Below are positions 994 through 58,139 of a stretch of 59,760 nt of DNA, one piece after another. Below the pieces are notes generated by a model, which was not told where the DNA came from, made no database searches, and was given only the letters and a program-made list of their open reading frames with translations. A program made the position numbers and the translations under genes. Positions within the stretch are counted from its first letter, which is position 1. Each line of letters begins with the position of its first letter. This stretch comes from a virus: IMG/VR virus record IMGVR_UViG_3300045135_000357, positions 1 to 59,760 of that record; one strand, 5' to 3'.

Positions 994-1010
994 GTTAGTG
1001 TCGCACTAAC
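994..1010. repeat. 12-copy palindrome, copy 1 (loop TCG)
   Basis: GTTAGTG-TCG-CACTAAC. It lies 17 bases upstream of the ATG of the leftmost gene. On the minus strand it supplies the TAG stop codon of the gene ending at 1006. Confidence 0.9.
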
Positions 1011-1419
1011 CGAAGTTGTGCTTGATCTCGCGGCTCACACCGCACATGTCCCACAGGTATTCCCGCAGGTCTCCGTTGTCGTCATTCTCTATAAGTTCTT
1101 CCTCGATGTCCGGTGTCTCCTCTCCGATGCGATACTTCACCCACGCATACTGCATGTTTCTGTTATCGGCGAACTGCTCCGCCACCGCTTGCAGGTGCTC
1201 GTAACCCTGCACGTCCTCATACTCTTCATACCATTTCACACAGCCAATCTCCCACCACAGGCAGTATATGCCAGCCTCCTCGTCGTCGTGGTTATTCCAC
1301 GCCTCTGCGATGTTGTGCTTCTGCACACGCGGGTCCATGCAATACACAGCCCACACCTCGTCACGATCCTGCTTACGTGCGAAGGCGATAGCCAATAATA
1401 CTTCGCTTCTATATCCCAT
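1006..1419 (-). CDS. Small phage protein of the MGYRSEV type
   Basis: 137 residues starting MGYRSEVLLAIAF. The ATG at 1419-1417 overlaps the TGA of the preceding gene as TGATG, which argues for translational coupling; a GTG one codon further upstream is less likely. The protein has an N-terminal hydrophobic beta-like segment, several Trp/Tyr residues in the middle (WWEIGCVKWYEEYEDV) and an acidic C-terminal half. Phage proteins with an MGYRSEV start recur as hypotheticals, but no biochemical role is known to me. Its stop codon lies inside the palindrome at 994-1010. Confidence 0.7.
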   Translation of the reverse strand: MGYRSEVLLAIAFARKQDRDEVWAVYCMDPRVQKHNIAEAWNNHDDEEAGIYCLWWEIGCVKWYEEYEDVQGYEHLQAVAEQFADNRNMQYAWVKYRIGEETPDIEEELIENDDNGDLREYLWDMCGVSREIKHNFG

Positions 1420-2648
1420 CACATGTCCCTCGATTTGATGTGCACGGTCTTGCCCACGTCAGGCTTGGCGCGCTCGTTATCCAACACAGTCCACAGCACG
1501 GGGTGGTGCCACTCACCCCAGCCACCGAACAGATAGCCATCAGTCAGCACGATCACAGCCTGTGCTTTGATCTGGTTGTCTTGTATATACTGCGGCACAC
1601 ATTCGACGTTGGTGCCACCGCCACCCTTGGGCTTGGTTGACTGCACGATGTTGTCCACCTCGGCACCCTCGTAGCGTTCATCACCTGCCACGTCCGTGTC
1701 CCAATACAGGATGCGGATAGCCTCGGGGTGCACAGTGTCCGCCACCTCTTTGATCTCGGCGAGGAACACACCCAGTTCACGCGCACCGATAGAGCCTGAC
1801 GTGTCAATGGCCACGACGATCTCGCCGATCTGCTCACTGATACCGCTTGGCATGTAGACACCCGCGCCGATGTAGCGACGGTTGGGCCTACGCCATGTCG
1901 AGTAGTCTGTGCCCTGACAAGTTGTCTGCACAAAGGCACGCAGCACCTCACGCCAGTCCACTTGTGGCTGAAGCAGTTCAACCATGTCACGGTCAGCACC
2001 ATTGCCCAGCTTGCCTGCGGCCAGCGCACCTTGGCGCACAGCTTCGTCGATCTCACGTGCGAGTTCGCGCTGCTCGTCTGCGGTCATAGCCTGCGCATCT
2101 TCCCATCCGTGCTCGTCGAAACCTTTACCGCTGCCATTTGGCATACCCTGTCCATCACCTTGTCCTGAGCCGTTACCCTGTCCTTGGCCTTGTTGCTTCA
2201 GGTCGTTGAACACCTGCGCGCTGTCCCACCCACGATACTTCTCATCGAAGCAGCCGATGTTGAGCGGCCCGTCCATGGTGGCGAACAGGTCCGCGTTGTC
2301 GTCCACCAGCTTGATGTTAATCACGTAGTCACACGCCATGTTGGCCAGCTGCGGGTCTTCGTCATACAGGTGCTTCCACGTTGTCAGGTGACGATACAGC
2401 TTGTGATACTCCTCGTGCAGCACAAGGAAGCGCAGCTGCCGGTCGTTGAGGTCGGCGATAAAGTCAGCACCGAACACCACGTCCTTGCCGTTCGTGTATG
2501 CTGTCGGACACTTGGATGCGTCATACTCGACGCGACGTGACCCGATCATCAGCACACCAGCCAGCGCCATGTATTTGGGGTTGGCCATGATGTCGATCAC
2601 GGCCTTCTGCACCCTCTGGTCTGGCGATAAGTTGTTCATCATTAACAT
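1419..2648 (-). CDS. CobT-like protein: putative HExxH metallopeptidase plus VWA domain
   Basis: 409 residues; the start is ATG 2648 behind AGGAG (AGGAGAACACACATG). The N-terminal part carries HEEYH, an HExxH zinc-binding motif, at about residues 78-82. A Gly/Gln-rich linker follows at about 153-175. The C-terminal von Willebrand A domain has a complete MIDAS: DTSGS at about 282-286, the Thr in GGGGTN, and the Asp in VLTDGY. This layout matches the VWA-like metallopeptidase family that partners MoxR/CobS-type AAA+ ATPases. The AAA+ gene lies two genes upstream in the same operon, so the pair probably forms an ATP-driven remodelling complex. CobT of aerobic cobaltochelatase is a distant analogue, but no CobN is visible, so a B12 role is not supported. 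Substrate unknown. Confidence 0.75.
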   Translation of the reverse strand: MLMMNNLSPDQRVQKAVIDIMANPKYMALAGVLMIGSRRVEYDASKCPTAYTNGKDVVFGADFIADLNDRQLRFLVLHEEYHKLYRHLTTWKHLYDEDPQLANMACDYVINIKLVDDNADLFATMDGPLNIGCFDEKYRGWDSAQVFNDLKQQGQGQGNGSGQGDGQGMPNGSGKGFDEHGWEDAQAMTADEQRELAREIDEAVRQGALAAGKLGNGADRDMVELLQPQVDWREVLRAFVQTTCQGTDYSTWRRPNRRYIGAGVYMPSGISEQIGEIVVAIDTSGSIGARELGVFLAEIKEVADTVHPEAIRILYWDTDVAGDERYEGAEVDNIVQSTKPKGGGGTNVECVPQYIQDNQIKAQAVIVLTDGYLFGGWGEWHHPVLWTVLDNERAKPDVGKTVHIKSRDM

Positions 2649-2659
2649 GTGTGTTCTCC

Positions 2660-2947
2660 TCACAGTCCTAGTATGCGTTTCCACCACGGCTTCTTCTCCA
2701 CCGTCGGTGCCTCGTCGTAAGTTGTTAGTGCGACACTAACAGTCTCGTATCGCTTGGGTTGCTTGTGCAGCTGCATGGAATAGATGCGCTGCGTTACTGC
2801 GCCGTGTGAACGGCCCAGCTGCTTGGCGATGTCCCAGTTGCTTGCACCCGTGTGATACATGTTGACGAGCGTATCCACTTCGTCGTCGGTCCACCGTGTG
2901 TTGGTGCGGCCTTCCTTGCGCTTGTATTTCTTCTGGTATGGTTTCAT
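2660..2947 (-). CDS. Small HTH (Myb/SANT-like) DNA-binding protein
   Basis: 95 residues, very basic N-terminus (KPYQKKYKRKEGR), start ATG 2947 behind GGAGACAGACC. Residues about 18-57 (RWTDDEVDTLVNMY ... GASNWDIAKQLGRSHGAV) fit a Myb/SANT or GcrA-like helix-turn-helix, with the conserved Trp and the IAKQLGRS recognition region. It is probably a sequence-specific DNA-binding regulator. It lies between the AAA+ gene and the VWA gene. The palindrome copy at 2724-2740 is inside its coding sequence and encodes VSVALT near the C-terminus. A role in binding the repeated palindromes is possible but untested. Confidence 0.65.
   Translation of the reverse strand: MKPYQKKYKRKEGRTNTRWTDDEVDTLVNMYHTGASNWDIAKQLGRSHGAVTQRIYSMQLHKQPKRYETVSVALTTYDEAPTVEKKPWWKRILGL
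2724..2740. repeat. 12-copy palindrome, copy 2 (loop CGA), inside a CDS
   Basis: GTTAGTG-CGA-CACTAAC. It lies within the small HTH gene, read in frame near its 3' end, 76 bases upstream of the VWA gene start. Confidence 0.9.
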
Positions 2948-2959
2948 TGGTCTGTCTCC

Positions 2960-4051: not shown

Positions 4052-4072
4052 GGTAGTTCTCCTGTTTGTTTG

Positions 4073-4089
4073 CCGTGGCGTAGCCACGG
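4073..4089. promoter_or_regulatory. Leader hairpin before AAA+ gene
   Basis: Perfect inverted repeat CCGTGGC-GTA-GCCACGG. It lies between the palindrome at 4101-4118 and the AAA+ ribosome binding site. There is no T-tract on either strand, so it is not a classical terminator. A hairpin in the same relative position occurs at 5727-5743. Confidence 0.55.
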
Positions 4090-4100
4090 GTTCTCCGTTT

Positions 4101-4118
4101 GTTAGTGGCGGCACTAAC
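4101..4118. repeat. 12-copy palindrome, copy 3 (loop GCGG)
   Basis: GTTAGTG-GCGG-CACTAAC. It lies in the gap between the DUF3150-like gene (stop at 4133) and the AAA+ gene start. Confidence 0.9.
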
Positions 4119-4132
4119 ACCGCCTGTTAAGT

Positions 4133-5047
4133 TTACATGTCGAGCGAAGGCAGAGACTTGATCGCCTCGTCCACCGCACGTTTGGTTTCACGGCGCAGAT
4201 ACTCGTCCTCGCGCAGCGCACTCGGCGTCACACCTCGCATCGCGTCGTCCAGCTTGTCGGCCATAGCTGACATCTGACTGTCGTTGTTCACGTTGCACAC
4301 GCGCAGCAGCTCAATCATCTCGGCCACGTTATCGACCAGCGTGTCACGGAAGATTTTCTTCTGCTCGTGGTCGCCGTAGTCGAGCCGCTCGGACATGCGG
4401 GACAGCGCATCGTATGCACGTTTCCACACGTCGTTCATGGCGTTGCTGAGTTGAGTGCTGTAGTAGTTCGAGTAGTGCGCCTTGAGTTCTTCGGCTGCGT
4501 CGTTTTGCAGGTCGATGCGGAAGTCACCCGCGTCAGGCAGCGGGATATACGTCAGGCCAAAGCGAAACTTTTTGCGCAGGCTGTCGAGCGTGGGGTAGTC
4601 ATCACGCAGGAACAAGTCACCCAGCTTGGTTTGGGCTTGGCTGATCTCCCAGTCATACGCGTCGAGGAACAGCTGCACGAGCCGCTCGTATTCGTTCTGC
4701 AACGCGGTCATCTGCTCGTTGTATTTGAAATACTGCGCCGTAGGCAGCAGGCGCAGGCCGGTATCGGACCACGGCATTGTCATGGCGTAGTGCGCGTTGC
4801 GCAGGTTGGCCGTGAATTTCTGCACCGCGACGAGTTCGGCGCAGTCACCCAGCAGTTTCTTGTTCACCGCTGCGACACCTGCCGCTGCGTAGTTCTGCTG
4901 CGTGACGTCTTCCGATGCGCGCTTGTCTTTCTTGCGGCCCGTCCATGTGCTGATGCTGAGTTCGACGAGCATCGAGGACGACGAGATCGTGGGGGTGTGC
5001 GCCTCCGGTGCAGGAGTGAGCGGGTTGAGGTGAGCGACGTTTGTCAT
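4133..5047 (-). CDS. DUF3150-like partner of the AAA+/VWA pair
   Basis: 304 residues from ATG 5047 with a GGAGAACTACC ribosome site. The protein is mostly helical and hydrophilic: an N-terminal Pro/Ser-rich stretch (about 1-25), then LVELSISTWTGRKKDK (about 27-42), and long charged helices to the end. The LxISxWxGRKK start and the position next to MoxR-type ATPase and VWA genes match what I know of DUF3150 proteins in phages and mobile elements; this is by recollection, not by search. It has no enzyme motif and is probably an adaptor or substrate of the ATPase complex. It has its own strong leftward promoter at 5147-5175 with an operator-like inverted repeat, and a palindrome 14 bases upstream of its start. 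Confidence 0.65.
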   Translation of the reverse strand: MTNVAHLNPLTPAPEAHTPTISSSSMLVELSISTWTGRKKDKRASEDVTQQNYAAAGVAAVNKKLLGDCAELVAVQKFTANLRNAHYAMTMPWSDTGLRLLPTAQYFKYNEQMTALQNEYERLVQLFLDAYDWEISQAQTKLGDLFLRDDYPTLDSLRKKFRFGLTYIPLPDAGDFRIDLQNDAAEELKAHYSNYYSTQLSNAMNDVWKRAYDALSRMSERLDYGDHEQKKIFRDTLVDNVAEMIELLRVCNVNNDSQMSAMADKLDDAMRGVTPSALREDEYLRRETKRAVDEAIKSLPSLDM

Positions 5048-5061
5048 GGTAGTTCTCCGTT

Positions 5062-5078
5062 GTTAGTGCCGCACTAAC
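5062..5078. repeat. 12-copy palindrome, copy 4 (loop CCG)
   Basis: GTTAGTG-CCG-CACTAAC. It lies in the 5' leader of the DUF3150-like gene, between the promoter at 5147-5175 and the ribosome binding site. Confidence 0.9.
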
Positions 5079-5146
5079 AAGTGGCGGCGTTTGGTGGTTG
5101 AGATTTGGTGTCTCGTGGTAGGCGGTTATTTTTATTGTTATATCTT

Positions 5147-5175
5147 ATCATACCATAGTGCGCCCACTATGGCAA
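5147..5175 (-). promoter_or_regulatory. Leftward sigma70-like promoter with palindromic spacer
   Basis: On the minus strand: TTGCCA (5175-5170), 17-base spacer, TATGAT (5152-5147). The spacer and -35 contain the inverted repeat CCATAGTG-CGCC-CACTATGG (5153-5172), a likely operator. Its TAGTG/CACTA core resembles the 12-copy palindrome. The promoter would drive the DUF3150-like, AAA+, HTH and VWA genes. Confidence 0.75.
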
Positions 5176-5195
5176 AGTTGTGGGCCTCGAACTCC

Positions 5196-5408
5196 CTATC
5201 TTACCTTCTGGTTCAGGTGCTTGAGTTCTTCCTTGCGTGTCACGCGGGTGTAGTGCCCCTTCGGGGTCGGCACGATGCACCATCCCATCCGTGCTTCACG
5301 CGCTGCTTCTTCGCCGCAGGTGAGGCAGGTGTTGTAGCCGAGGGCCTTCCTTTTGGGGTGGTATGTCTCCCCGCACTCGATGCACTCTGGTTTGTCATGC
5401 TGTGTCAT
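5196..5408 (-). CDS. Small zinc-ribbon protein
   Basis: 70 residues, start ATG 5408, overlapping the stop of the upstream gene as ATGA. Two CxxC pairs (CIEC about 9-12, CLTC about 28-31) fit a treble-clef or zinc-ribbon fold, followed by a basic C-terminus. Such small phage zinc proteins may bind nucleic acid or host proteins, but there is no direct hint of target. It is translationally coupled to the 99-residue gene. Its ribosome site, AAAGGAG, directly follows the palindrome at 5423-5440. Confidence 0.6.
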   Translation of the reverse strand: MTQHDKPECIECGETYHPKRKALGYNTCLTCGEEAAREARMGWCIVPTPKGHYTRVTRKEELKHLNQKVR

Positions 5409-5704
5409 GCCATTTCTCCTTTGTTAGTGTCGGCACTAACAGGCACCAACATCTCCACGTCGTAACAGTCACACGCGAGGACGCCGTATTCGGCAGCGTC
5501 GTGGTAACGCGCGAAGTATGTCTCGTCTTTGATTGTGCCGATCAATGGCGCTTGGCCGTGGCCGATGTCGCGGACCGTGTCCGCAAGCCAGCGTTCGAAG
5601 GCAGAGCCTTCTTCCTCGTCGAGGCCGCTGATGTCGCCGTAAAGCACAGGGCAAATCCAGTGGGCAGGCAGGCTCAGGGTGATGTGTTCGAAGCGCGTAG
5701 TCAT
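5405..5704 (-). CDS. Unknown 99-residue early protein
   Basis: 99 residues from ATG 5704, with TAGGAGATAAGAT upstream. It is acidic, with a central segment YGDISGLDEEEGSAFERWLA and one cysteine pair (LACDCY). I recognise no family. The palindrome copy at 5423-5440 is read in frame and encodes part of the C-terminus (PVSADTN), so the repeat is tolerated inside the coding sequence. The leader contains a second palindrome (5746-5763) and a hairpin (5727-5743). Confidence 0.6.
   Translation of the reverse strand: MTTRFEHITLSLPAHWICPVLYGDISGLDEEEGSAFERWLADTVRDIGHGQAPLIGTIKDETYFARYHDAAEYGVLACDCYDVEMLVPVSADTNKGEMA
5423..5440. repeat. 12-copy palindrome, copy 5 (loop TCGG), inside a CDS end
   Basis: GTTAGTG-TCGG-CACTAAC. 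It is encoded in frame in the 3' end of the 99-residue gene and lies immediately upstream of the zinc-ribbon gene ribosome site. Confidence 0.9.
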
Positions 5705-5726
5705 ATCTTATCTCCTATTTGTGGTC

Positions 5727-5743
5727 TCGGGGCTTAGCCCCGA
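5727..5743. promoter_or_regulatory. Leader hairpin before 99-residue gene
   Basis: Perfect inverted repeat TCGGGGC-TTA-GCCCCGA directly next to the palindrome at 5746-5763. There is no following T-tract. It parallels the hairpin-plus-palindrome leader of the AAA+ gene. Confidence 0.55.
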
Positions 5744-5745
5744 TT

Positions 5746-5763
5746 GTTAGTGTCGGCACTAAC
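5746..5763. repeat. 12-copy palindrome, copy 6 (loop TCGG)
   Basis: GTTAGTG-TCGG-CACTAAC. It lies in the short gap between the 81-residue gene stop (5769) and the leader of the 99-residue gene. Confidence 0.9.
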
Positions 5764-5768
5764 ATGCC

Positions 5769-6014
5769 TTATTCCTGTGCCCAGCGTTTGGGCGTGTTGG
5801 GGTCGCGGCGCATGGGGTTGTTGCGCGTGGCGCGCTTGGGCGGGGTGATCGACGCATCCGCACGTTCTTCTCTGGCCCACTCGGCGCGGGTCGCCTTGCT
5901 GGTGCCGTGGTATCCGGCCTTGACGCGGTGGATGAAGAACTTGCCTTGGGCCTCGCGGGCAACAGCGGCACGATAGTGCATGGCGCAGAACTTGCGTAAT
6001 TCCTCTTTGGTCAT
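5769..6014 (-). CDS. Small basic protein, unknown
   Basis: 81 residues from ATG 6014 (MTKEELRKF). GGAG lies 9 bases upstream, which is better spaced than for the ATG at 6020 that overlaps the previous stop. The protein is strongly basic, with an N-terminal helix and a disordered Pro/Arg-rich C-terminus (RATRNNPMRRDPNTPKR), suggesting a nucleic-acid or RNA polymerase contact protein, but no family is recognised. It is coupled to the upstream 66-residue gene. Confidence 0.55.
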   Translation of the reverse strand: MTKEELRKFCAMHYRAAVAREAQGKFFIHRVKAGYHGTSKATRAEWAREERADASITPPKRATRNNPMRRDPNTPKRWAQE

Positions 6015-6016
6015 GG

Positions 6017-6217
6017 TCATTCTCCGTTCATGGCGGCTTCTAGGGCCAGCATTTCTCTGAGGGCAGCTTGGACGCGACGCGAGGCGGTATCGAACGCTTC
6101 GATCTCCAACGCGTCCTGCGCATCTTGCAACAGGGCGCGAACCCACGTTGATTTTGAGCGCACCAGCATTCGGGTTTCGGCGTGGTCCCAGTGGGCAAGT
6201 ATCTCAGCATCAGTCAT
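6017..6217 (-). CDS. Small helical protein, unknown; first gene after promoter
   Basis: 66 residues from ATG 6217, preceded by AAAGGATACAAGAT. It is predicted helical, with Ala/Leu/Glu heptad-like stretches (ALREMLALEAAMNGE) and no motif. It is the first gene downstream of the strong leftward promoter at 6314-6342. The palindrome at 6232-6248 lies in its 5' leader, so this is likely an immediate-early transcript start. Confidence 0.55.
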   Translation of the reverse strand: MTDAEILAHWDHAETRMLVRSKSTWVRALLQDAQDALEIEAFDTASRRVQAALREMLALEAAMNGE

Positions 6218-6231
6218 ATCTTGTATCCTTT

Positions 6232-6248
6232 GTTAGTGCGGCACTAAC
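6232..6248. repeat. 12-copy palindrome, copy 7 (loop CGG)
   Basis: GTTAGTG-CGG-CACTAAC in the 5' leader of the first left-arm gene. A lone half-site GTTAGTG follows at 6276-6282, still downstream of the promoter. Confidence 0.9.
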
Positions 6249-6313
6249 AGTGCGGCGGGGTGGAAGCTGGTAGTGGTTAGTGTTAAGCGGTTAGTTTTGG
6301 TGGTATTTCTTAT

Positions 6314-6342
6314 AGAATACCGCAAGTGGACCACTATGTCAA
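6314..6342 (-). promoter_or_regulatory. Strong leftward sigma70 promoter
   Basis: On the minus strand: TTGACA (6342-6337), exactly 17 bases, TATTCT (6319-6314). The spacer includes AGTGG-A-CCACT (6325-6335), an inverted repeat similar to the operator-like spacer at 5153-5172. It would drive the left arm from the 66-residue gene leftward. Confidence 0.8.
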
Positions 6343-6360
6343 ATGTTTGGCCTATCAGGC

Positions 6361-6660
6361 GGTGGTATCTGGTGGTATCTGGTGTAATGTCGCTGAATGT
6401 CGCAAGATGTCGTAGGTAGAGGGTCTGTAAGTGTATGAAAATAAAAGAATGTTCATAAATAATAAATGTTCCTAAAATTGTATACTCATGTTTGACGCGG
6501 ATATTTGGGGGGAATCGGCCCCAGCCCCTGCCTTAGTTTCGGTGCCTCAAAATCCGAGGACACTACCTTACCCCCCCGACATTAGGAACATTTCGTAAAA
6601 TCAATGGGTTACAAGGGGTCCTACCACCGACATTAGCGACATTATCACGGATACCACTAT
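6361..6660. other. Possible replication origin: iteron-like repeats around an AT-rich core
   Basis: Two GGTGGTATCT repeats (6361-6380) are followed by three head-to-tail 10-bp units of the form (A/G)ATGTCGnnn (6386-6415). Then comes an AT-rich tract (6431-6490). On the other side are three inverted CGACATT copies (6577-6583, 6628-6634, 6637-6643). A 12-bp inverted pair, AAATGTTCCTAA (6464-6475) and TTAGGAACATTT (6582-6593), frames the core. The architecture resembles iteron origins; no initiator binding is shown. Confidence 0.45.
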
Positions 6661-6720
6661 TTACCATTTCCTGATAGGCAGTTTTGGGGGGTCCGAACCC
6701 GTGCCTTCTCCCCGAACTAT

Positions 6721-6773
6721 CAGGCGCTATGCAACTCTAAGAACTGGCATCGTTTGTTAGTGTCGGCACTAAC
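6721..6773. repeat. 52-bp intergenic repeat, copy A (with palindrome copy 8, 6756-6773)
   Basis: GGCGCT-nn-GCAACTCTAAGAACTGGCATC-type segment ending in GTTAGTG-TCGG-CACTAAC. Three copies lie within 290 bases. Confidence 0.85.
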
Positions 6774-6835
6774 AGTAAAACGGAACATTACTTTCTTATC
6801 AACGTATTAGCACAAACCGCTTATTGACGAGTTGT

Positions 6836-6887
6836 CAGGCGCTACGCAACTCTAGGAACTGGCATCAGTTGTTAGTGTAACACTAAC
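6836..6887. repeat. 52-bp intergenic repeat, copy B (with palindrome copy 9, 6871-6887)
   Basis: Same segment as copy A with a few substitutions (CTCTAGGAACTGGCATCAG), ending in GTTAGTG-TAA-CACTAAC. It directly abuts the T-tract side of the leftward terminator at 6888-6913. Confidence 0.85.
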
Positions 6888-6913
6888 AAAAAAAGCCCCG
6901 CGCGAGGCGGGGC
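6888..6913 (-). terminator. Leftward rho-independent terminator
   Basis: On the minus strand: GCCCCGC stem, 5-base loop, GCGGGGC, followed by seven T. It lies only about 110 bases downstream of the terminator at 7023-7054, so a very short leftward transcript may end here. Confidence 0.8.
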
Positions 6914-6957
6914 AGTGGGCAGTGGTAGGCAATGTAGTAGAACCATAGCATAGTGCT

Positions 6958-7008
6958 AGGCGCTGCGCAACTCTAAGAACTGGCATCGTTTGTTAGTGCG
7001 GCACTAAC
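6958..7008. repeat. 52-bp intergenic repeat, copy C (with palindrome copy 10, 6992-7008)
   Basis: Nearly identical to copy A, ending in GTTAGTG-CGG-CACTAAC. On the minus strand TTGCGC (6979-6974) lies 17 bases from TATGGT, a weak possible promoter for a transcript of about 45 bases ending at 6888. Confidence 0.8.
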
Positions 7009-7022
7009 AAATCAGCGGGCAC

Positions 7023-7054
7023 AAAAAAGCCCCACCCGCCGGAGCGGATGGGGC
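7023..7054 (-). terminator. Leftward terminator after the 174-residue gene
   Basis: On the minus strand GCCCCA pairs with TGGGGC, extended after one mismatch by CCG/CGG, followed by six T. It lies directly after the stop of the gene ending at 7062. Confidence 0.8.
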
Positions 7055-7061
7055 GAAGATG

Positions 7062-7586
7062 TTATTTGACCATCTTGTTTAGGTCGCGCAGCGCTTTGAG
7101 GAAAGCCGCGGCGTCGAACGTCAGTGCCTCGGCACCTTGGACGATCTTTTCAATCGTCTCGATCTGGGCGCGGATTTTGTCCTCTGGCGACTTGGGCGGC
7201 TGCGGTGCGCGCTTGTCATCGACGCCCTCGCGCTTTTCCAAGGCGCGCTTGAAGTCGTTCCGGCGTGCGCCGATCTGTTGCTGCCAGTAGCGACGATCCG
7301 CCTTGTCAGCGTCGCCAAGCGACTTGGCAGGCGCGGCCAAAAGTTTCTGCACCCGCGCCGTGAAGCCCGCGACAATCGCCGCGTTGATCTTCTCGAAGAT
7401 TTCCTCGGTCGCGGTTGATTCCCCGCCCTTGGACTTGGGCGAGATGAAGTCGGTCGACTTGAAATCTGCCGCGTGCAGCTCATCCGCGGCGCTTGCCATC
7501 TTGCGGGCTGCGCCCTCGACGGCCGCGACGGCGGTGGTGATGACCTTGAAGGCCGCGACGGCCTGCTTTTCGTTTGCGTTTGCCAT
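7062..7586 (-). CDS. Unknown helical early protein, isolated between control regions
   Basis: 174 residues from ATG 7586, behind AGGAGTTACATC. The sequence is Ala/Lys-rich and probably almost all helical: AVAAFKVITTAVAAVEGAA in the N-terminal part, a basic middle (RYWQQQIGARRNDFKRALEKRE) and a C-terminal helix with KALRDLNKMVK. No enzyme motif or membrane segment is visible. It is a stand-alone leftward transcription unit with its own terminator (7023-7054) and an operator-like inverted repeat upstream (7615-7638). This placement fits a regulatory or DNA-binding protein acting at the control region, but that is inference. Confidence 0.7.
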   Translation of the reverse strand: MANANEKQAVAAFKVITTAVAAVEGAARKMASAADELHAADFKSTDFISPKSKGGESTATEEIFEKINAAIVAGFTARVQKLLAAPAKSLGDADKADRRYWQQQIGARRNDFKRALEKREGVDDKRAPQPPKSPEDKIRAQIETIEKIVQGAEALTFDAAAFLKALRDLNKMVK

Positions 7587-7614
7587 GATGTAACTCCTAT
7601 CTCATAGCTAATAA

Positions 7615-7638
7615 ACCGGTCGAACCGTTCGATCCGGT
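7615..7638. promoter_or_regulatory. Operator-like inverted repeat upstream of the 174-residue gene
   Basis: ACCGG-TCGAAC / GTTCGA-T-CCGGT, an inverted repeat with 11-base arms and one bulged base. It lies in the leader of the leftward gene starting at 7586. Its sequence is unrelated to the 12-copy palindrome. Confidence 0.45.
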
Positions 7639-7727
7639 AAGTAAGTTATGCCAAGTTATGGTGTGGTTTACAATAGATAACGCCCAAACGATAACGCCTG
7701 ATAGCGTAGCGTAGCGCGTCGAAACGT

Positions 7728-7746
7728 GTTAGTGAGCGGCACTAAC
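7728..7746. repeat. 12-copy palindrome, copy 11 (loop AGCGG)
   Basis: GTTAGTG-AGCGG-CACTAAC, the longest loop of the set. It lies in the divergent region upstream of the late genes. Confidence 0.9.
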
Positions 7747-7944
7747 AAAACGCCAACAGCGCAACCATACCCCACCCCCACCCCCCGAATTGGTTTTGGG
7801 ACTCCGCTGACTTCCTATGTATTACTAATCCAGACGAACAATCCCGCCCCAAAACATTTCGACATAATTTTTCCTAATAAAAACAAAGGCTTACATTTTA
7901 CCCACCCACCGGATTCGGCGCGCTCAGGGAAACACCCCCCTTAT

Positions 7945-7960
7945 GGGACCCACGGGTCCC
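7945..7960. promoter_or_regulatory. Perfect inverted repeat upstream of terS
   Basis: GGGACCC-AC-GGGTCCC, 7-base arms, about 65 bases before the terS start. It has no T-tract. It could be a terminase recognition element or a regulatory hairpin. Confidence 0.4.
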
Positions 7961-7995
7961 TCCGACCCCCAAAAATTTCGCTATGCTACCGAGTC

Positions 7996-8024
7996 TTGCG
8001 AAATCACACCGTAAGAACTACACT
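7996..8024 (+). promoter_or_regulatory. Weak candidate late promoter
   Basis: TTGCGA (7996-8001), 17 bases, TACACT (8019-8024). If active, transcription would start near 8031 and the first usable terS start would be ATG 8056. The match is weak. Confidence 0.3.
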
Positions 8025-8025
8025 G

Positions 8026-8646
8026 ATGCCATCGGCCACTAGCCTGCGACATGACATGACAATACATCTGACCCCGGAAAGCGGGATACCGGCAGAGGGC
8101 CGGACCCCGAGAGTGGACTTAAAAGAGCGTGCAGCCGCGTGCGCACGCACGGTTGAGTTGTTGTCAGAACATGGTCTCTCCACTGTAAAGACCCGCGAGG
8201 ATGACGAGCTTGCTGCTCAGCTCTCCGTCGCCTATGCCGAAAACCCTGAACACGCATCTAAAGTCGTTACACCGAAGCGAGTGGCTACGATGACCCCCGC
8301 TGCGATCCTAGAGACGAACAAGATTCTCAAGGAGTACGGGCACCACGTCGTGGAGTCCGCTGTTACAGTGCGTAACCTCGTGACTAACAAACTCCTGCTG
8401 GAGACGGAGAACCCGGACCCTCGGGTGCGTATGAAGGCGCTGGAGCTGCTGGGTAAGATCAGCGACGTTGGGTTGTTCGCGGAGAAGTCCGAGGTGACTA
8501 TCACGCACCAGACTACGGACGATCTGAAGGAGAACCTGCGTAGAAAACTGCAGAAGCTAAGTCAGCCCGACGAGATCGAGGACGCCGTGGTCATAGACGG
8601 CGATGCCATCGACGTGGATAAAGAGCTTGGGTTCGACGATGAATAA
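8026..8646 (+). CDS. terS: Probable terminase small subunit
   Basis: 206 residues from ATG 8026, or 196 from ATG 8056. Neither has a clear ribosome site, and the longer open frame upstream would read through the palindrome at 7728-7746, so it is rejected. The call rests mainly on position: it overlaps the large terminase gene by 8 bases. The middle is helical (KEYGHHVVESAVTVRNLVTNK) with a repeat-like helical segment RMKALELLGKISDVGLF and an acidic C-terminus (DAIDVDKELGFDDE), a layout seen in small terminases that bind the packaging site through an N-terminal helical domain and contact TerL through the tail. No sequence motif settles it. Confidence 0.6.
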   Translation: MPSATSLRHDMTIHLTPESGIPAEGRTPRVDLKERAAACARTVELLSEHGLSTVKTREDDELAAQLSVAYAENPEHASKVVTPKRVATMTPAAILETNKILKEYGHHVVESAVTVRNLVTNKLLLETENPDPRVRMKALELLGKISDVGLFAEKSEVTITHQTTDDLKENLRRKLQKLSQPDEIEDAVVIDGDAIDVDKELGFDDE

Positions 8647-10189
8647 GGTGTTGGACTTTAGCGAGGAGGAGATCGAGCACATGCTCGCGAACCTCGACGC
8701 GTTCAGTCCAGAAGAGATTGCCGAGATCGACCGGATGGTGGACGAGCTTGCGACACGCAAGTCAAACCAAGCGGCGCATGACGATCTGCTGGCGTTCTGT
8801 AAGAAGATGGACCCGAACTACCTCGTGGGGCGGCACCACCGCATACTTGCCAACATGCTTATGGCCATTGAGCGTGGAGACAAAGACCGTATTTGCGTGA
8901 ACATGCCGCCCCGCCACGGTAAATCACAACTCGTGTCGATATTCTACCCCGCATGGTTCCTTGGGCGGAATCCCGACAAAAAAGTTATGATGGTGTCCCA
9001 CACCACGGACCTCGCGGTGGATTTCGGGCGTAAGGTGCGTAACCTCATCGCCACCGACCTGTATAAAGAAGTGTTTCCCGCTGTGGCGCTGTCCATCGAC
9101 TCAAAGTCAGCCGGCCGGTGGAACACAAACCACAAGGGCGAGTACTTCGCCTGTGGTATCGGTAGCTCCATCGCGGGTCGCGGTGCTGACCTGCTGCTGG
9201 TAGATGACCCTCACTCCGAACAAGACGTGCTGAACGGTAACTTCGAGGTGTTCGAGCGCGCATACGAGTGGTTTACCTTCGGTGCACGTACACGTCTGAT
9301 GCCCGGTGGGCGCGTGGCTATCGTGCAGACCCGCTGGCACTTGGACGACCTAACAGGCCGTGTAACACGTGACATGGCAAAGAACGACAAGTCTGACCAG
9401 TACGAGGTGGTCGAGTTCCCAGCGATCCTCGATGTAAAAGACAAGAAGACCAAGAAGGTCACGCAGAAGCCGCTGTGGCCGGAGTTCTTCGATCTGACAG
9501 CGCTGGAGCGCACCAAAGCCTCAATGCCGGTGTTCCAGTGGAACGCACAGTATCAGCAGCAACCCACCGCCGAGGAAGCCGCGCTGGTCAAACGGGAGTG
9601 GTGGTTGGAGTGGCCGCACGACGAGCCGCCGCCCTGCGAGTACATAATAATGTCGCTCGACGCCGCAGCAGAAAAGCACAATCGCGCTGACTTTACCGCC
9701 CTAACAACTTGGGGTGTGTTCCTCAACGAGGAGACCGGCGACTACAATGTAATATTGTTAAATAGCATAAAACAGCGTATGGAGTTTCCTGAGCTCAAAA
9801 AGCTGGCGATGGAAGAATACGCCGAATGGCAACCTGACTCGTTCATCGTTGAAAAGAAGAGCGCTGGCACGGCGCTCTATCAGGAGATGCGCCGTATGGG
9901 TCTGCCCGTGCAAGAGTTTACGCCACATCGTGGGTCCGGTGACAAGCTGGCCCGCCTGAACAGTGTGGCGGACATTGTTGCATCTGGTATGTGCTGGGTT
10001 CCGCAGACGCGCTGGGCCGAAGAAGTCGTGGAGGAGATTGCTGGATTCCCATTCATGTCGCATGATGACTTGGTGGACTCCACAGTCATGGCTCTTATGC
10101 GATTCCGTAATGGAGGGTTTATCCGCCTACCCACCGACGAACCGGAAGAGCAGAGATATTTCAAGCAACGCCGGGGCGGCTACTACTGA
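8639..10189 (+). CDS. terL: Terminase large subunit (packaging ATPase-nuclease)
   Basis: 516 residues from ATG 8639, overlapping terS by 8 bases; an upstream in-frame start at 8603 is less likely. The N-terminal ATPase has Walker A PPRHGKSQ (about 90-97) and Walker B LLLVDD (about 185-190). The C-terminal RNase H-like nuclease has a first acidic residue in MSLDAA (Asp about 341), SFIVEKKSAG as the middle motif, and HDDLVDST near the end. Length and motif order are typical. It translocates the genome into the prohead and cuts it, acting with TerS and the portal encoded next door. Confidence 0.95.
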   Translation: MNKVLDFSEEEIEHMLANLDAFSPEEIAEIDRMVDELATRKSNQAAHDDLLAFCKKMDPNYLVGRHHRILANMLMAIERGDKDRICVNMPPRHGKSQLVSIFYPAWFLGRNPDKKVMMVSHTTDLAVDFGRKVRNLIATDLYKEVFPAVALSIDSKSAGRWNTNHKGEYFACGIGSSIAGRGADLLLVDDPHSEQDVLNGNFEVFERAYEWFTFGARTRLMPGGRVAIVQTRWHLDDLTGRVTRDMAKNDKSDQYEVVEFPAILDVKDKKTKKVTQKPLWPEFFDLTALERTKASMPVFQWNAQYQQQPTAEEAALVKREWWLEWPHDEPPPCEYIIMSLDAAAEKHNRADFTALTTWGVFLNEETGDYNVILLNSIKQRMEFPELKKLAMEEYAEWQPDSFIVEKKSAGTALYQEMRRMGLPVQEFTPHRGSGDKLARLNSVADIVASGMCWVPQTRWAEEVVEEIAGFPFMSHDDLVDSTVMALMRFRNGGFIRLPTDEPEEQRYFKQRRGGYY

Positions 10190-10198
10190 GGGTAAGAA

Positions 10199-12679
10199 AT
10201 GGCTATCGAAAAAGGACTATACAGCGCCCCAATGGGCCTAGATGACGAGATGGAAGACCAGCTGGAGGGCGAATTGCCCGGTGAGGAGCTGGAAATCGAG
10301 ATTATTGACCCAGAAGCGGTCATTCTTGATGACGGGAGCATGGAAATCACACTGATTCCCGACGTCGAAACCGCCGATCTGGCGGATTTTGGGGCTAACT
10401 TGGCGGAATTTCTGGACGAGGGCGACCTCCGCGAGCTGTCTCAAGACCTCGTGGGGCTCATCGAAGCGGATATCGATAGCCGGAAAGACTGGGTTGAGTC
10501 CTATGTGCAGGGTCTAGACGTGCTTGGGTTCAAGTACGAGGAGCGTACAGACCCGTGGGAGGGTTCCTGTGGGGTGTATTCTACGATTTTGGCTGAAGCA
10601 GCCATCCGGTTCCAAGCTGAAACTATGTCTGAGACTTTCCCTGCCGCAGGGCCGGTCAAGGTAAAAATCCTTGGTGACGAGACTAAGGAGAAGATCGAGG
10701 CCGCGGAGCGCGTCAAGGCCGATATGAACTACGAGATCACCGAGCGGATGGTCGAGTACCGGTCTGAGCACGAGCGGATGCTCTATTCGCTGGGTCTGGC
10801 TGGGTCTGCGTTCAAAAAGGTTTATTTCGACCCCAATATGGGCCGTCAGGTATCGCTGTATATCCCTGCAGAAGACGTGATTGTGCCGTATGGCGCGAGC
10901 CACATCGAGACGGCGGAGCGCGTCACCCACGTGATGCGTAAAACCAAGAACGAGATGCAGAAGTTGATGGCCGCTGGGTTCTACCGCGACATCGATCTTG
11001 GCGATCCCGTGCCCTATCACTCTGATATTGAAGAGAAAAAGGCCGAAGAGGGCGGCTACAGCCTGACTGACGACAACCGCTTCGCACTCTACGAGTGCCA
11101 TGTCGAGATGGTTGTGCCGGGCGTGGACGACGAGGATGACCTCCCGAAGGCATACGTCGTTACTATTGAGCGTGGTTCTGGTGAGGTTCTGGCAGTCCGT
11201 CGTAACTACGAAGAAGGTGACGAACTGGCCCTGAAAAACCAGTATTTCGTACACTATCCGTACGTTCCGGGGTTTGGGTTCTATGGCCTTGGTCTAATCC
11301 ATATCATCGGTGGGTATTCGCGTGCTGGTACGTCGCTGATTCGCCAGCTGGTGGACGCAGGTACGCTGTCTAACTTGCCGGGTGGTCTGAAGACACGTGG
11401 CCTGCGTATTAAGGGCGATGATTCTCCCATCGAGCCGGGTGAGTTTAAGGACGTAGATGTGCCGTCGGGGTCTATCCGCGACAACATCATGCCCCTCCCG
11501 TACAAAGAACCGTCGCAAACACTGCTTGCCCTGCTTGATCGCATCACGCAGGAGGGACGTCGCCTCGGGGCTATCAGCGACCTGAATATCTCCGATATGT
11601 CGGCTAACGCACCAGTGGGTACCACACTTGCCCTGCTGGAGCGTACGCTGAAGCCGATGGCCGCGGTACAGGCGCGCGTACACTACGCGATGAAGCAAGA
11701 GTTCAAGATGCTCAAGGCTATCATCGCAGAGCACGCTCCCGAGGATTACTCGTACCAGCCAGCTCGTGGTGAGGTAGGCGCACGCCGCGCTGATTACATG
11801 ATGGTGGATGTGATCCCCGTCAGTGATCCTAACAGCTCCACGATGGCACAGCGTGTGGTCCAGTATCAGGCCGTGCTCCAGATGGCTCAGCAGGCTCCGC
11901 AGATTTACGATCTACCGGTCCTGCACCGCGAGATGATGGAGGTTCTGGGTATCAAGAACGCGGACAAGATCGTGCCGACTCGCGACGACGCGAAGCCGAC
12001 AGACCCGATCAGCGAGAACATGGCTGCACTGATTGGCAAGCCGATGAAAGCGTTCATCTACCAAGATCACCAAGCGCATATCGCTGCACACACATCGTTC
12101 CTACAAGACCCGATGATTGCGCAGATGATTGGCCAGAACCCACAAGCAAAGCAGATCATGGCGTCTTTGCAGGCCCATATCGCCGAGCACCTCGGGTTCC
12201 AGTACCGTCAGCAGATCGAGGAGAAGCTGGGCGCACCGCTGCCCGCACCGAACGAGGAGCTGCCAGAAGAAGTCGAGGTACAGCTGTCTCGCCTCGTGGC
12301 AGACGCTGGTCGCCAGCTTACGCAGGCACACCAGCAACAAGCCGCACAGCAGAAGGCACAGCAGCAACAACAAGACCCGATGTTCCAGCTGCAGCAAGCA
12401 GAACTCAAGGTCAAAGAGGCCGAGGTTCAGCGCAAAGCGGCAAAAGACCGTGCCGACGCAGCTGTCAAGCAAGAGCAGCTTAAACTGCAGACTGCGAAGG
12501 CCGCTACGGACGCCATGCTCAAGGCCGAGGACATCAAGGTTGCGAAGACTGAGCTCGCCATTGATGCAGAAGTCCGTGGTGTGGAGATGAGCCAAGCCCG
12601 CAGAGCTGCGCGCGACAAGACGCAGCTAGAGGTGGCGAAGCTCATGCAGCAAACCAAGCCAAAAGGGGAGAATAAATAA
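10199..12679 (+). CDS. Portal protein
   Basis: 826 residues, 9 bases after terL. It forms the dodecameric ring at the capsid vertex through which DNA is pumped. The conserved-looking core (about 100-620) includes DPWEGSCGVYSTILAEAAI and FPAAGPVKVKILGD, typical of podovirus-type portals, and GLGLIHIIGGYSRAGTSLIR in the middle. The N-terminus is very acidic. The C-terminal 130 residues are a Gln/Ala/Lys-rich coiled coil (QQQAAQQKAQQQQQDPMF onward), a likely barrel or crown extension that makes the protein longer than many portals. Position between TerL and capsid genes supports the call. Confidence 0.85.
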   Translation: MAIEKGLYSAPMGLDDEMEDQLEGELPGEELEIEIIDPEAVILDDGSMEITLIPDVETADLADFGANLAEFLDEGDLRELSQDLVGLIEADIDSRKDWVESYVQGLDVLGFKYEERTDPWEGSCGVYSTILAEAAIRFQAETMSETFPAAGPVKVKILGDETKEKIEAAERVKADMNYEITERMVEYRSEHERMLYSLGLAGSAFKKVYFDPNMGRQVSLYIPAEDVIVPYGASHIETAERVTHVMRKTKNEMQKLMAAGFYRDIDLGDPVPYHSDIEEKKAEEGGYSLTDDNRFALYECHVEMVVPGVDDEDDLPKAYVVTIERGSGEVLAVRRNYEEGDELALKNQYFVHYPYVPGFGFYGLGLIHIIGGYSRAGTSLIRQLVDAGTLSNLPGGLKTRGLRIKGDDSPIEPGEFKDVDVPSGSIRDNIMPLPYKEPSQTLLALLDRITQEGRRLGAISDLNISDMSANAPVGTTLALLERTLKPMAAVQARVHYAMKQEFKMLKAIIAEHAPEDYSYQPARGEVGARRADYMMVDVIPVSDPNSSTMAQRVVQYQAVLQMAQQAPQIYDLPVLHREMMEVLGIKNADKIVPTRDDAKPTDPISENMAALIGKPMKAFIYQDHQAHIAAHTSFLQDPMIAQMIGQNPQAKQIMASLQAHIAEHLGFQYRQQIEEKLGAPLPAPNEELPEEVEVQLSRLVADAGRQLTQAHQQQAAQQKAQQQQQDPMFQLQQAELKVKEAEVQRKAAKDRADAAVKQEQLKLQTAKAATDAMLKAEDIKVAKTELAIDAEVRGVEMSQARRAARDKTQLEVAKLMQQTKPKGENK

Positions 12680-12681
12680 CC

Positions 12682-13249: not shown

Positions 13250-13261
13250 GGGGGATACGGC

Positions 13262-14759: not shown

Positions 14760-14771
14760 TAGGAGCTTAAG

Positions 14772-15368: not shown

Positions 15369-15380
15369 GGAGGCTGACTA

Positions 15381-16358: not shown

Positions 16359-16432
16359 TGTTATGGTGTATTTTAGTGGCATCCCTGACAGCCGCATGGT
16401 GTGGCTGACTTGACCCACGACAGGAGATACAC

Positions 16433-16669
16433 ATGGGTACTACGACCTTTAGCGGTCCGGTTGTCTCGAACAACGGCTTCACCGGTGACGTAACCGGCGC
16501 AATCAAAGTTCCAACTTACACTGTTGCTACTGCACCTTCGGCTTCCACCGCTGGTGAAGGGACTGTCGTCTACGTCTCTGACGGCGCTGCAGGCTCCGCG
16601 ATTCTTGCGTTCTCGGATGGCACTAACTGGAAACGCTCCGATACTGGCGGCACCATCGCCGCATCGTAA
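16433..16669 (+). CDS. Small beta-rich structural protein
   Basis: 78 residues behind AGGAGATACAC. It is Thr/Gly/Ala-rich with a tail-fibre-like text (FSGPVVSNNGFTGDVTGAI ... VVYVSDGAAGSAILAFSDG). It contains the YVSDGAAG-type module often found in phage fibre and head-spike proteins. It is first after the capsid terminator. Probably a virion component, possibly a head fibre. Confidence 0.6.
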   Translation: MGTTTFSGPVVSNNGFTGDVTGAIKVPTYTVATAPSASTAGEGTVVYVSDGAAGSAILAFSDGTNWKRSDTGGTIAAS

Positions 16670-44852: not shown

Positions 44853-44855
44853 CCG

Positions 44856-51713: not shown

Positions 51714-51714
51714 G

Positions 51715-51742
51715 AAAAAAGTCCCCGCCGTTAAGCGGGGAC
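51715..51742 (-). terminator. Leftward terminator at the end of the replication arm
   Basis: On the minus strand: GTCCCCGC stem, 6-base loop, GCGGGGAC, followed by six T. It lies between the converging late operon (stop 51713) and the leftward arm (last stop 51801). The late strand lacks a T-tract here. Confidence 0.85.
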
Positions 51743-51800
51743 TAGTGCAGGGAGGAGAACATGATTTGACATAAGTCGTACCATGAGTACTGACATGTTA

Positions 51801-54840: not shown

Positions 54841-54897
54841 TGCCTGCGCCTACCAAAGAAGAGGCCGTGGCCAACATGACCACGGCCCGGGTTGAGA

Positions 54898-55788: not shown

Positions 55789-55800
55789 CGCATGTTCTCC

Positions 55801-56133
55801 TTATGCGTCTTCGTCTGCATCGAAATCAAATTCGAGTTGGTCTTCGTCATGGGTTACTTCGCCCATTGACAGTACTGAGCCTTCCACACCGGTCACTTCT
55901 ACTGCGACGTCTGCGGATGCTGCTTCTTCCTCTTCTTTCTGCATCGCCATAAGCGCTTCGGCTACGGCAGGGCGATTGAAGCGGTAGGTGTTGCCCAGCT
56001 TGATGTAGGTGTTCTCGGGGATGTACCCCTGCCGCACCCATGCACGGATCGTGGACACCGACACGCAGAAATACTGCGATAGGTTCTCGATGGTCACAAA
56101 CGGGCTTTTCTCTTTCACGACTTTGTCGGTCAT
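55801..56133 (-). CDS. MerR/excisionase-like HTH protein
   Basis: 110 residues; ATG overlaps the preceding stop by 4 bases. Residues about 10-60 (FVTIENLSQYFCVSVSTIRA, WVRQGYIPENTYIKLGNTYR) have the HTH_17 pattern: helix-turn-helix followed by the RxGxIP wing and FNRPAVAEAL. The C-terminus is highly acidic. Probably a transcription regulator or a DNA-architectural factor. No integrase is visible in the window, so an excisionase role is not supported. Confidence 0.7.
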   Translation of the reverse strand: MTDKVVKEKSPFVTIENLSQYFCVSVSTIRAWVRQGYIPENTYIKLGNTYRFNRPAVAEALMAMQKEEEEAASADVAVEVTGVEGSVLSMGEVTHDEDQLEFDFDADEDA

Positions 56134-56528: not shown

Positions 56529-56553
56529 CATGTTCTCCTTTGCCTAGACCTTA

Positions 56554-56582
56554 TAGATACTGACTTATAATGCGCTAGTCAA
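56554..56582 (-). promoter_or_regulatory. Leftward sigma70-like promoter
   Basis: On the minus strand: TTGACT (56582-56577), 17 bases, TATCTA (56559-56554). It overlaps the 3' end of the SNF2 gene and would drive the coiled-coil, HTH, SSB-like and primase genes. Confidence 0.7.
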
Positions 56583-58110
56583 GTATCTGTTTGTACAAGT
56601 CGATAATTCTTGTGTGCACGTCTATTCTGTTATCAAGCAGCGCGTAAACGTGTTTTTCTACGGGTGCGCCTTGCAGCTGCACGACAGTACACGGATGCTT
56701 CTGTCCAGAACGATGCACACGAGCGTTCGCTTGTGCGTAGGTCTCTAGTGAGGACGTAGGTCCCCACCATACGACAGTGTTGGCTGCGGTTAAAGTCACA
56801 CCATGTGCTGCCGATTGGGGCTGGATCACCAATATCTTGGGGTCAGGGGTCTCTTGGAACCGTTTGAATATCTCCGTGCGCTTCGCTGCTGGTACGTCTC
56901 CGCGAATCACTTCGGCGGTGTGTCCGTCCTTCCGCAGCTTCTCGACAAGCACGTCGATGGTGTGCCTAAACGGTACAAACACGAGCACCTTCTGGCTGCT
57001 CTCGTCTATAACTTCTTTCAGCACGTTGTATCGGTTCTTGATGTCGAACTCTAGCGTCGAGCCGTCGTCGGTATACACAGCCCCAGCGCTGATCTGCAGG
57101 AGTTTGTTCATAGCAATCGCCGCATTTGGTGCGGTGACCTCTTCTCCTGCGGCCTCCATGACCAGTCGGTTCTTCAGTTCGTTGTAATACTTCTTCTGCT
57201 GGCGGGTAAGTTCGACGTCGCGCTTCACGTACGTCATGTCCGGCAGGTCGAGGCATTGCTCCTTGGTGAAGCGGATGGCTGGTTGCAGTGCGTTATACAC
57301 GGTCTCCGTCGCATTCGGCTTCGCTATCCATTTGAACTGCGTGATCTTCATCATCACTTGGTCGCGGAACGCACCGAAAAAACGCGGTACGGCAGTGGGG
57401 TTTACCAGCTTAGCTAGACCGAACGCGTCGAGCGGGGACTGCGCGGCGGGTGTACCCGTCATCATCCACAGCCACGTATCATCAGTTACTAATCGGTTGA
57501 GGCACTTCCACCGCTTGCTCTGTGCGTTCTTGTAGTGTGTTGCCTCGTCGATAATGATGAGGTCGAACCCGCCGTTACGTATCTCCTCTTCGACGATCTC
57601 TACGCCATCGAAGTTGATGACGATGAACTCCGCCCCACCGTTGATAATCTTCTTGCGCTTCTCCGCTGAGCCATGGGCCACGTCTACCGTGCGGTGCATA
57701 GCAACCTCGAACAGGTCTGCGCGCCATGCTGAGTCCATGATCGACAGCGGGCAGATCACCAGTGCACGACGCACCTTGCCTTGCTTCATCAGGAAGTCCG
57801 CTGCCCAGATAGCAGAGGCAGTCTTGCCGGTGCCCTGTTCGTTGAAGCAGAATGACTTCTTGTGCAGTGTGAGGAACTCGGCGGTAGTGCGCTGATGGTC
57901 CATAGGCTTATAGCGACCGGGCCAGTCGTATCGCCCAGAAATCGGGGACGGTGCCTTTACACCCAAGCTGCGCAGGGTCTGCACCTCATCCACACCCCAG
58001 CTAACCGCAACCTCGTGAGGGCCGGTGGCCTTACTCTTGGGGATGGTTTCAGTGACACGTTTTGGATTGCGCAACCTAAGTAGGAGCGCCTTGCTGTTGA
58101 TAATCTTCAT
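56575..58110 (-). CDS. SNF2-type DEAD/H helicase
   Basis: 511 residues; ATG 58110 behind CCGGAGAGAAC. RecA-like domain 1 has Q-motif-type PMDHQRTTAEFL (about 69-80), Walker A EQGTGKT (91-97), ALVICPLSIM (motif Ia), and IIIDEATHYKN (188-191 DEAT box). Domain 2 carries VLVFVPFRHTIDVLVEKL and the motif VI stretch ANARVHRSGQ. This is the SNF2 architecture used by phages for fork or recombination functions. The palindrome at 58123-58139 lies 12 bases upstream of its start. Confidence 0.9.
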   Translation of the reverse strand: MKIINSKALLLRLRNPKRVTETIPKSKATGPHEVAVSWGVDEVQTLRSLGVKAPSPISGRYDWPGRYKPMDHQRTTAEFLTLHKKSFCFNEQGTGKTASAIWAADFLMKQGKVRRALVICPLSIMDSAWRADLFEVAMHRTVDVAHGSAEKRKKIINGGAEFIVINFDGVEIVEEEIRNGGFDLIIIDEATHYKNAQSKRWKCLNRLVTDDTWLWMMTGTPAAQSPLDAFGLAKLVNPTAVPRFFGAFRDQVMMKITQFKWIAKPNATETVYNALQPAIRFTKEQCLDLPDMTYVKRDVELTRQQKKYYNELKNRLVMEAAGEEVTAPNAAIAMNKLLQISAGAVYTDDGSTLEFDIKNRYNVLKEVIDESSQKVLVFVPFRHTIDVLVEKLRKDGHTAEVIRGDVPAAKRTEIFKRFQETPDPKILVIQPQSAAHGVTLTAANTVVWWGPTSSLETYAQANARVHRSGQKHPCTVVQLQGAPVEKHVYALLDNRIDVHTRIIDLYKQILD

Positions 58111-58122
58111 GTTCTCTCCGGT

Positions 58123-58139
58123 GTTAGTGCGGCACTAAC
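58123..58139. repeat. 12-copy palindrome, copy 12 (loop CGG)
   Basis: GTTAGTG-CGG-CACTAAC. The only copy in the right arm. On the minus strand it provides the TAG stop of the HNH-like gene and lies in the leader of the SNF2 gene. Confidence 0.9.

Follow-up and report, generated by a model that had tools for sequence, protein, structure and literature searches.

Repeated palindromes in phage genomes

In T4, repeated stem-loops that carry an early promoter are located between small early genes (promoter-early-stem-loop elements, PeSL). In this work we analyzed a 7-bp inverted repeat, GTTAGTG-N3-5-CACTAAC, dispersed in a stretch of 59,760 nucleotides of viral DNA (IMG/VR record IMGVR_UViG_3300045135_000357, positions 1 to 59,760; hereafter, the window), together with p174, a protein of 174 residues encoded beside it that is very probably the partner of the repeat in trans. 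In Cluster O mycobacteriophages (Corndog), the 17-bp repeat 5'-TGTTCGG-N3-CCGAACA is present in 34 copies per genome; its function is reported as unknown, with a dimeric binder suggested and no partner protein identified (PMC4351075). Both elements are 7-bp inverted repeats with invariant arms and a variable centre, and the intergenic copies of the Cluster O repeat lie mostly in the leftward non-structural operon (PMC4351075). They differ, however, in sequence and in the phages that carry them; the Cluster O spacer is fixed at 3 bp, many copies are intragenic, and the repeat is not known to form a lineage-specific allelic series (PMC4351075). TGTTCGG-N3-CCGAACA was absent among the arm families of the window and its relatives.

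The extended start-associated sequences (ESAS) of Cluster K are also inverted repeats with a variable spacer, placed upstream of translation starts, restricted to non-structural genes and with a consensus that varies by subcluster, and their partner is unknown too (PMC3203893). Unlike the repeat studied here, they have imperfect 17-bp arms and spacers of 4-13, and they are tied to a 13-bp start-associated sequence (SAS), GGGATAGGAGCCC (PMC3203893). No SAS-like element was found here: the flanks contain no constant 13-mer, and the arms are perfect and 7-8 bp long.

With regard to function, the stoperators of Cluster A are the best parallel. They occur at many sites genome-wide, in short intergenic spaces and promoters (here, in the early region only), and each subcluster-specific consensus is matched by its cognate repressor, for which a block of elongation has been proposed (PMC6550527, PMC9283540). 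There, site and repressor differ together, and p174 behaves analogously. On the other hand, stoperators are 13-bp asymmetric sequences oriented with transcription, and not perfect palindromes; their repressor is a monomer with a helix-turn-helix (HTH), whereas p174 has no recognised HTH; and those phages are temperate (PMC6550527, PMC9283540), whereas here no integrase was found in 10 records searched (PF00589 gave no match and PF00239 none that passed the cut-off, the window itself being probably a fragment). In SPbeta, a repeated intergenic element (SPBRE) was later identified as the site of the phage master repressor, MrpR; that element is a 15-bp motif located in promoters, read by a repressor with a recombinase fold, in a temperate phage (PMC10516654).

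The present system would work much as these do, but it lacks at least one of the tested defining features of each of Clusters A, O and K; it would be a case of regulation through dispersed operators by a protein that seems to be undescribed. While the early-gene palindromes of Clusters O and K are known without a partner, here an allelic series names a candidate partner and a helix within it that may determine specificity.

Distribution of the palindrome in the window

As the original prediction had described, the window contains twelve exact copies of the palindrome (Table 1), all of them perfect, with loops of 3 nt in seven, 4 nt in four and 5 nt in one, and no copy was found in the late operon (8603-51713). 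When up to one mismatch per arm was allowed, the sole additional match was at 36590, and it looks unrelated. The statement that such a repetition cannot be chance was borne out, since dinucleotide shuffles of the window gave no match; furthermore, in 20 first-order shuffles every palindrome with 7-bp arms occurred at most twice.

Five of the twelve copies (994, 5062, 5423, 6232 and 58123) stop 12-14 nt short of a start codon, the ribosome site lying in the gap, and those at 5746 and 4101 lie farther upstream of one. Those at 2724 and 5423 reach into the 3' end of the coding frame that precedes them, three others (6756, 6871 and 6992) are inside a non-coding control region (6300-7050), and the copy at 7728 precedes the start of p174 at a distance. 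Hence the proposal that the copies sit in the leader of the next minus-strand gene holds by position for about seven of the twelve, and the proposal that they mark the 5' ends of translational units holds only in part; the remainder lie in the control region, at the end of a coding frame or 141 nt upstream of a gene.

The comparison with T4 PeSL elements, which had also been put forward, was not supported. Two predicted promoters, both recognized by consensus match only, precede palindromes 6232 and 5062 by approximately 60-75 nt. The region 5000-8700 contains three promoter-like sites, about as many as shuffled sequences do, and most palindromes have none nearby. Unlike in PeSL, most copies are without a promoter, and a trans-acting specificity partner is indicated.

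Table 1. Palindromes and associated features of the window.
Feature	Position	Strand	Remarks
Palindrome	994..1010	-	N3 loop; 14 nt before start codon (979)
Palindrome	2724..2740	-	in 3' end of HTH95 coding frame; 75 nt before DUF2201 start
Palindrome	4101..4118	-	4-nt loop; 49 nt before MoxR-like ATPase start
Palindrome	5062..5078	-	14 nt before DUF3150 protein start; ~60-75 nt downstream of predicted promoter
Sigma70-like promoter, predicted	5147..5175	-	TTGCCA-17-TATGAT, extended -10; consensus match only
Palindrome	5423..5440	-	4-nt loop; 14 nt before 70-aa zinc-ribbon open reading frame (ORF); overlaps upstream frame end
Palindrome	5746..5763	-	4-nt loop; 41 nt before 99-aa ORF start
Palindrome	6232..6248	-	14 nt before 66-aa ORF start; ~60 nt downstream of predicted promoter
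Sigma70-like promoter, predicted	6314..6342	-	TTGACA-17-TATTCT; consensus match only
Palindrome	6756..6773	-	4-nt loop; non-coding control region; followed by CCAGTT element
Palindrome	6871..6887	-	control region; abuts terminator U-tract; followed by CCAGTT element
Second terminator	6895..6913	-	abuts palindrome 6871
Palindrome	6992..7008	-	control region; just past p174 terminator; followed by CCAGTT element
Intrinsic terminator	7029..7054	-	after p174
p174, proposed cognate binding protein	7062-7586	-	174 aa; residues 92-119, arm-coupled helix
Decayed palindrome	7655..7671	-	GTAAACCACACCATAAC; intact copy opposite in relative L019
Palindrome	7728..7746	-	5-nt loop; 141 nt upstream of p174 start
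Palindrome	58123..58139	-	12 nt before SNF2-like helicase start

Palindrome arms in related phages

Approximately 200 relatives were collected by scanning viral contigs with DUF2201, terminase and p174; for p174, which is too heterogeneous to be scanned as an alignment, the search relied on single sequences and on the terminase. In a de novo search, most relatives presented one dominant repeated palindrome each, with lineage-specific arms. The arm families include GTTAGTG, GTTAGTC, GTTAGGC, GGTAGTG, TTTAGGG, TTTACGC, GTTATGC, GTTATAA, TGTATAC, TGTCTAC, ATTAGGT, CTTAGTC, TTCGGGC, GTTCTAC, AGTATGG and GTTAGGG, among others. In 12 genomes, 97 palindrome sites were early and none was in the late modules. 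In near-complete genomes the sites begin in the control region, extend as far as the helicase gene and occupy corresponding gene junctions, so that these relatives neither lack the repeat nor keep it at unrelated positions.

Within one genome the arms are nearly identical while the loops differ. Between genomes, the arms change in concert: relatives L070 and L078, 95% identical over four proteins, carry ATTAGGT-type and TGTATAC-type sites, respectively, in flanks that align. This concerted, genome-wide behaviour of the arms points to a trans-acting reader.

Two other observations were made on the sites of relatives. L055 and L058 (IMG/VR 3300028925), 99% identical, present two arm families, GTTAGTC and GTTATGC, whose types are swapped at two orthologous sites; they may be recombinants in transition or assembly chimeras. 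In L013, the gene of DUF2201 contains a palindrome (10502-10519) where it encodes a Gly-rich stretch; the window gene is without this palindrome.

p174 and its coupling to the arms

The early leftward arm begins with the gene of p174, which has palindromes on both sides and two intrinsic terminators behind it. Homologues are present in the relatives whose control region is covered, and of the 59 p174 contigs that were long enough, 56 carry a repeated palindrome; in four distant isolates both p174 and the repeat are missing. The protein evolves fast, and its segment 92-119 tracks the palindrome arms. GTTAGTG arms go with the helix RYWQQQIGA[RK]..D in two distant clades, and TTTAGGG arms with IGS..KD[IL]KN.LM in two different p174 backbones. 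Likewise, TTCGGGC arms accompany QDR.TELLKT.RRGL, GTTATAA arms IGAYM, and TGT[AC]TAC arms.AD[RK].AM. In the above-mentioned pair L070 and L078, the p174 helix is only 14% identical and the arms differ.

This association was quantified by partial Mantel tests. The helix correlated with the arms, given the rest of p174, with r=0.574 (reached in 0 of 2000 permutations, whose maximum was 0.145), while the rest of the protein, given the helix, gave -0.09. The nine most arm-coupled residues of p174 are all within 99-118. When the other operon proteins were accounted for, the values were 0.64 for the helix and 0.54 for p174, compared with 0.29 for DUF3150, 0.16 for the ATPase, 0.07 for the terminase (terL), -0.02 for DUF2201 and -0.10 for p306. 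Moreover, where the rest of the protein was less than 35% identical, the nearest neighbour by helix predicted the arms in 42 of 48 cases (4.3 expected by chance); below 25% identity the helix succeeded in 24 of 38 and the rest of p174 in 3. Taken together, these sequence comparisons make p174 the very probable trans-acting partner of the palindromes.

The AlphaFold2 model of p174 is all-helical (pLDDT, the predicted local distance difference test score, of 87; 91 for the central domain alone), and a single long helix, 92-119, holds the arm-coupled residues. In addition, the p174 proteins of L070, L078 and G011 share the C-terminal segment AKVLESxQQAAKRAQAIEEPxFDVVxLxxLLAKAQQIVV while their central helices differ; because the same C-terminus is joined to different central helices, this suggests that the specificity region is exchanged inside the p174 gene.

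DNA site or RNA hairpin

The strongest alternative is that the palindromes work as RNA, folding into hairpins in the leaders of mRNAs, where p174 or another protein would bind the stem beside the ribosome site and block translation or steer decay. Several facts would agree with it: the position of five window copies immediately ahead of a ribosome site, loops that are never shorter than 3 nt, and the coupling of p174 to the arms, which is equally compatible with an RNA-binding p174. The pairing of the arms speaks otherwise, with statistics that come from relatives, given that the window copies are all perfect. Half-sites are polymorphic in three genomes (G004, G005 and G007). There, left and right halves draw on the same small alphabets, Watson-Crick pairs at the inner positions do not outnumber those of shuffles (P 0.14-1.0), and G-U is hardly ever seen. 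G-A, T-C, G-G and C-C are common combinations at inner half-site positions. Among the single-departure sites of all loci, 32 have an unpaired base versus 7 with G-U, and four of these seven have it at the outermost base.

Such independence of the half-sites would be expected of double-stranded DNA half-sites and not of a selected RNA stem, and it constitutes a strong but indirect argument. Furthermore, some sites are in non-coding control DNA and others inside coding frames, and within a genome it is the sequence of the stem that is fixed, and not its structure alone. At one orthologous site, the loop is AATC in L039 and its reverse complement, GATT, in L049. Because the half-sites vary independently of base pairing, protein half-sites on DNA are favoured over an RNA hairpin: the palindrome is probably read as DNA, and the hairpin account is unlikely. 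The RNA stem-loop of the original prediction is therefore disfavoured, and the protein operator that it named as the alternative gains ground, with p174 as the candidate protein.

Other explanations for the repeats

The palindromes could also be operators of another phage or host protein, with p174 merely linked to those of the control region. p174 does sit in that region, so a single exchange could carry both, and DUF3150, located farther along, is somewhat coupled as well. Nevertheless, physical linkage is a poor explanation because the coupling is confined to one helix, with the rest of p174 uncoupled once the helix is accounted for, and because p306, about as close on the opposite side, is uncoupled; besides, the same arms recur many kilobases away, as far as the helicase gene. 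Two HTH proteins and an XRE protein fail as candidates. HTH95 (2660-2947) is present in only 6 of 18 relatives. HTH110 (55801-56133) is universal, but its helix is conserved and near-identical in G009 and G017, whose arms differ. The XRE gene next to a palindrome of L058 occurs only in L055, L057-L059, L061 and, diverged, L060. We regard a different binder as quite improbable.

A boundary for recombination or modular exchange, as had been suggested for this repeat, or a mobile repeat of the repetitive extragenic palindromic type, in either case devoid of a regulatory role, has very little in its favour. The sites do coincide with gene boundaries, L055 and L058 have a mosaic appearance, and similar indels are described for the repeats of Cluster O (PMC4351075). 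However, the sites stay in place when the arms of a whole genome change, phages that are almost identical can have different arms in intact flanks, no flanking mobile sequence was seen, and the coupling with the helix would be left unexplained. Least credible of all is that they are DNA-hairpin promoters of an N4-type virion RNA polymerase: in spite of an N4-like gene pair (MoxR-like ATPase and VWA protein) and two giant proteins, searches with the latter (big1 and big2) gave no polymerase match, with a PF00940 search that had no positive control, and the loops vary in length without a conserved base and mismatched stems are tolerated.

Proposed mechanism

We propose that the palindromes are operators of p174, which would act as an autoregulated silencer of early genes; for the account as a whole, silencing included, we consider the odds reasonably favourable. 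p174 would be a sequence-specific DNA-binding protein that uses all the palindromes as a multi-copy operator set, probably as a symmetric dimer in which each subunit reads one 7-bp half-site through helix 92-119; a flexible dimer would accommodate spacers of 3-5 bp. Bound sites downstream of early promoters or at gene starts would most likely stop or dampen early transcription, as a roadblock of the kind proposed for stoperators. p174 would block elongation or limit early expression, and repress itself, rather than activate. Its autoregulation is suggested by its own terminators and the palindromes on both sides, and late expression would be spared because the late operon has no sites.

It is also conceivable that the p174 of one phage silences incoming phages of the same specificity. 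Many matched arm-helix alleles are the pattern expected in such a case, and their occurrence among near-identical phages resembles immunity groups (PMC6550527). More tentatively, then, p174, as a member of an undescribed family, would act through about ten allele-specific palindromes per genome on its own early genes and on those of superinfecting phages of the same type. Under this doubtful but possible extension, frequency-dependent selection would account for at least 15 incompatible helix-operator pairs, replaced together genome-wide, in phages without signs of integration. Binding, dimerisation, repression and the immunity-like role are all steps that we infer.

Several observations weigh against this account, apart from the five copies ahead of start codons discussed above. 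Spacers of 3-5 bp within one genome would be unusual for a rigid dimer. p174 had no match in Pfam and PHROGs, either to an HTH or to a known DNA-binding family, and searches of PDB structures with the whole protein and with its central domain gave no significant match, which does not prove a new fold; the way in which p174 would contact DNA is therefore inferred. Three p174 contigs (L206, L086 and L243) present no clear repeated palindrome, and the two arm families of L055 and L058 are too many for one p174, unless these are recombinants or chimeras. With regard to the coupling test, it covered terL, p306, DUF2201, the ATPase and DUF3150 beside p174, and its permutations leave some shared ancestry, a bias that the matches across clades and the near-identical pairs guard against.

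If the proposal is true, p174 would represent a new family of proteins that bind DNA sequence-specifically and whose target alleles are known, and phages without a detected integrase would possess an immunity-like layer. Arms that are predictable from p174 would allow the sorting of metagenomic phages into compatibility groups. The natural allelic series found in this large uncultured clade makes the question of the partner directly testable.

Genome context and additional elements

The genome is a member of an uncultured tailed-phage clade. Its leftward arm encodes p174, small ORFs, the DUF3150 protein, a MoxR-like ATPase and a DUF2201 VWA-like protein, and further on DNA polymerase A, an exonuclease, a SNF2-like helicase and a primase-helicase; terminase, portal and structural genes are rightward. 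The window is probably a linear fragment, because its relative G001 has approximately 5 kb and more palindromes where the ends of the window (1 and 59760) would join. No DNA match to the window was found in annotated phages, the nearest of which share just 45-47% identity in the terminase. In cellular genomes, no relative of the terminase was found; the one relative of the helicase came from a contig of high coverage in a Rhodobacteraceae bin, and this contig lacks the repeat.

Other elements accompany the palindromes. In the control region (6700-7010, minus strand), a second element, GATGCCAGTT-C-TTAGAG-TT-GCGCAGCGCC, follows palindromes 6992, 6871 and 6756 at a distance of 4 nt. The sequence GAtaCCAGTT..GCGttGcGCC of this region is kept across lineages regardless of the palindrome arms, and a shorter CCAGTT form stands before a VRR-nuclease-like gene; the CCAGTT element is possibly a promoter or origin of the clade. 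Two GC-rich palindromes, CGGGGCTAAGCCCCG (5727-5743) and CCGTGGCTACGCCACGG (~4071-4088), each separate a repeat palindrome from the start codon that follows it. The sole match in an Rfam search of the window, unrelated to the palindromes, was a Mu-gpT-DE RNA (16383-16435, plus strand, 70.5 bits) near the major head protein gene. Finally, only some strains have an additional HTH-like stretch (AELSGLHRDTLRM) in a small zinc-binding ORF (L058 11643-11840 compared with L061 3220-3384).

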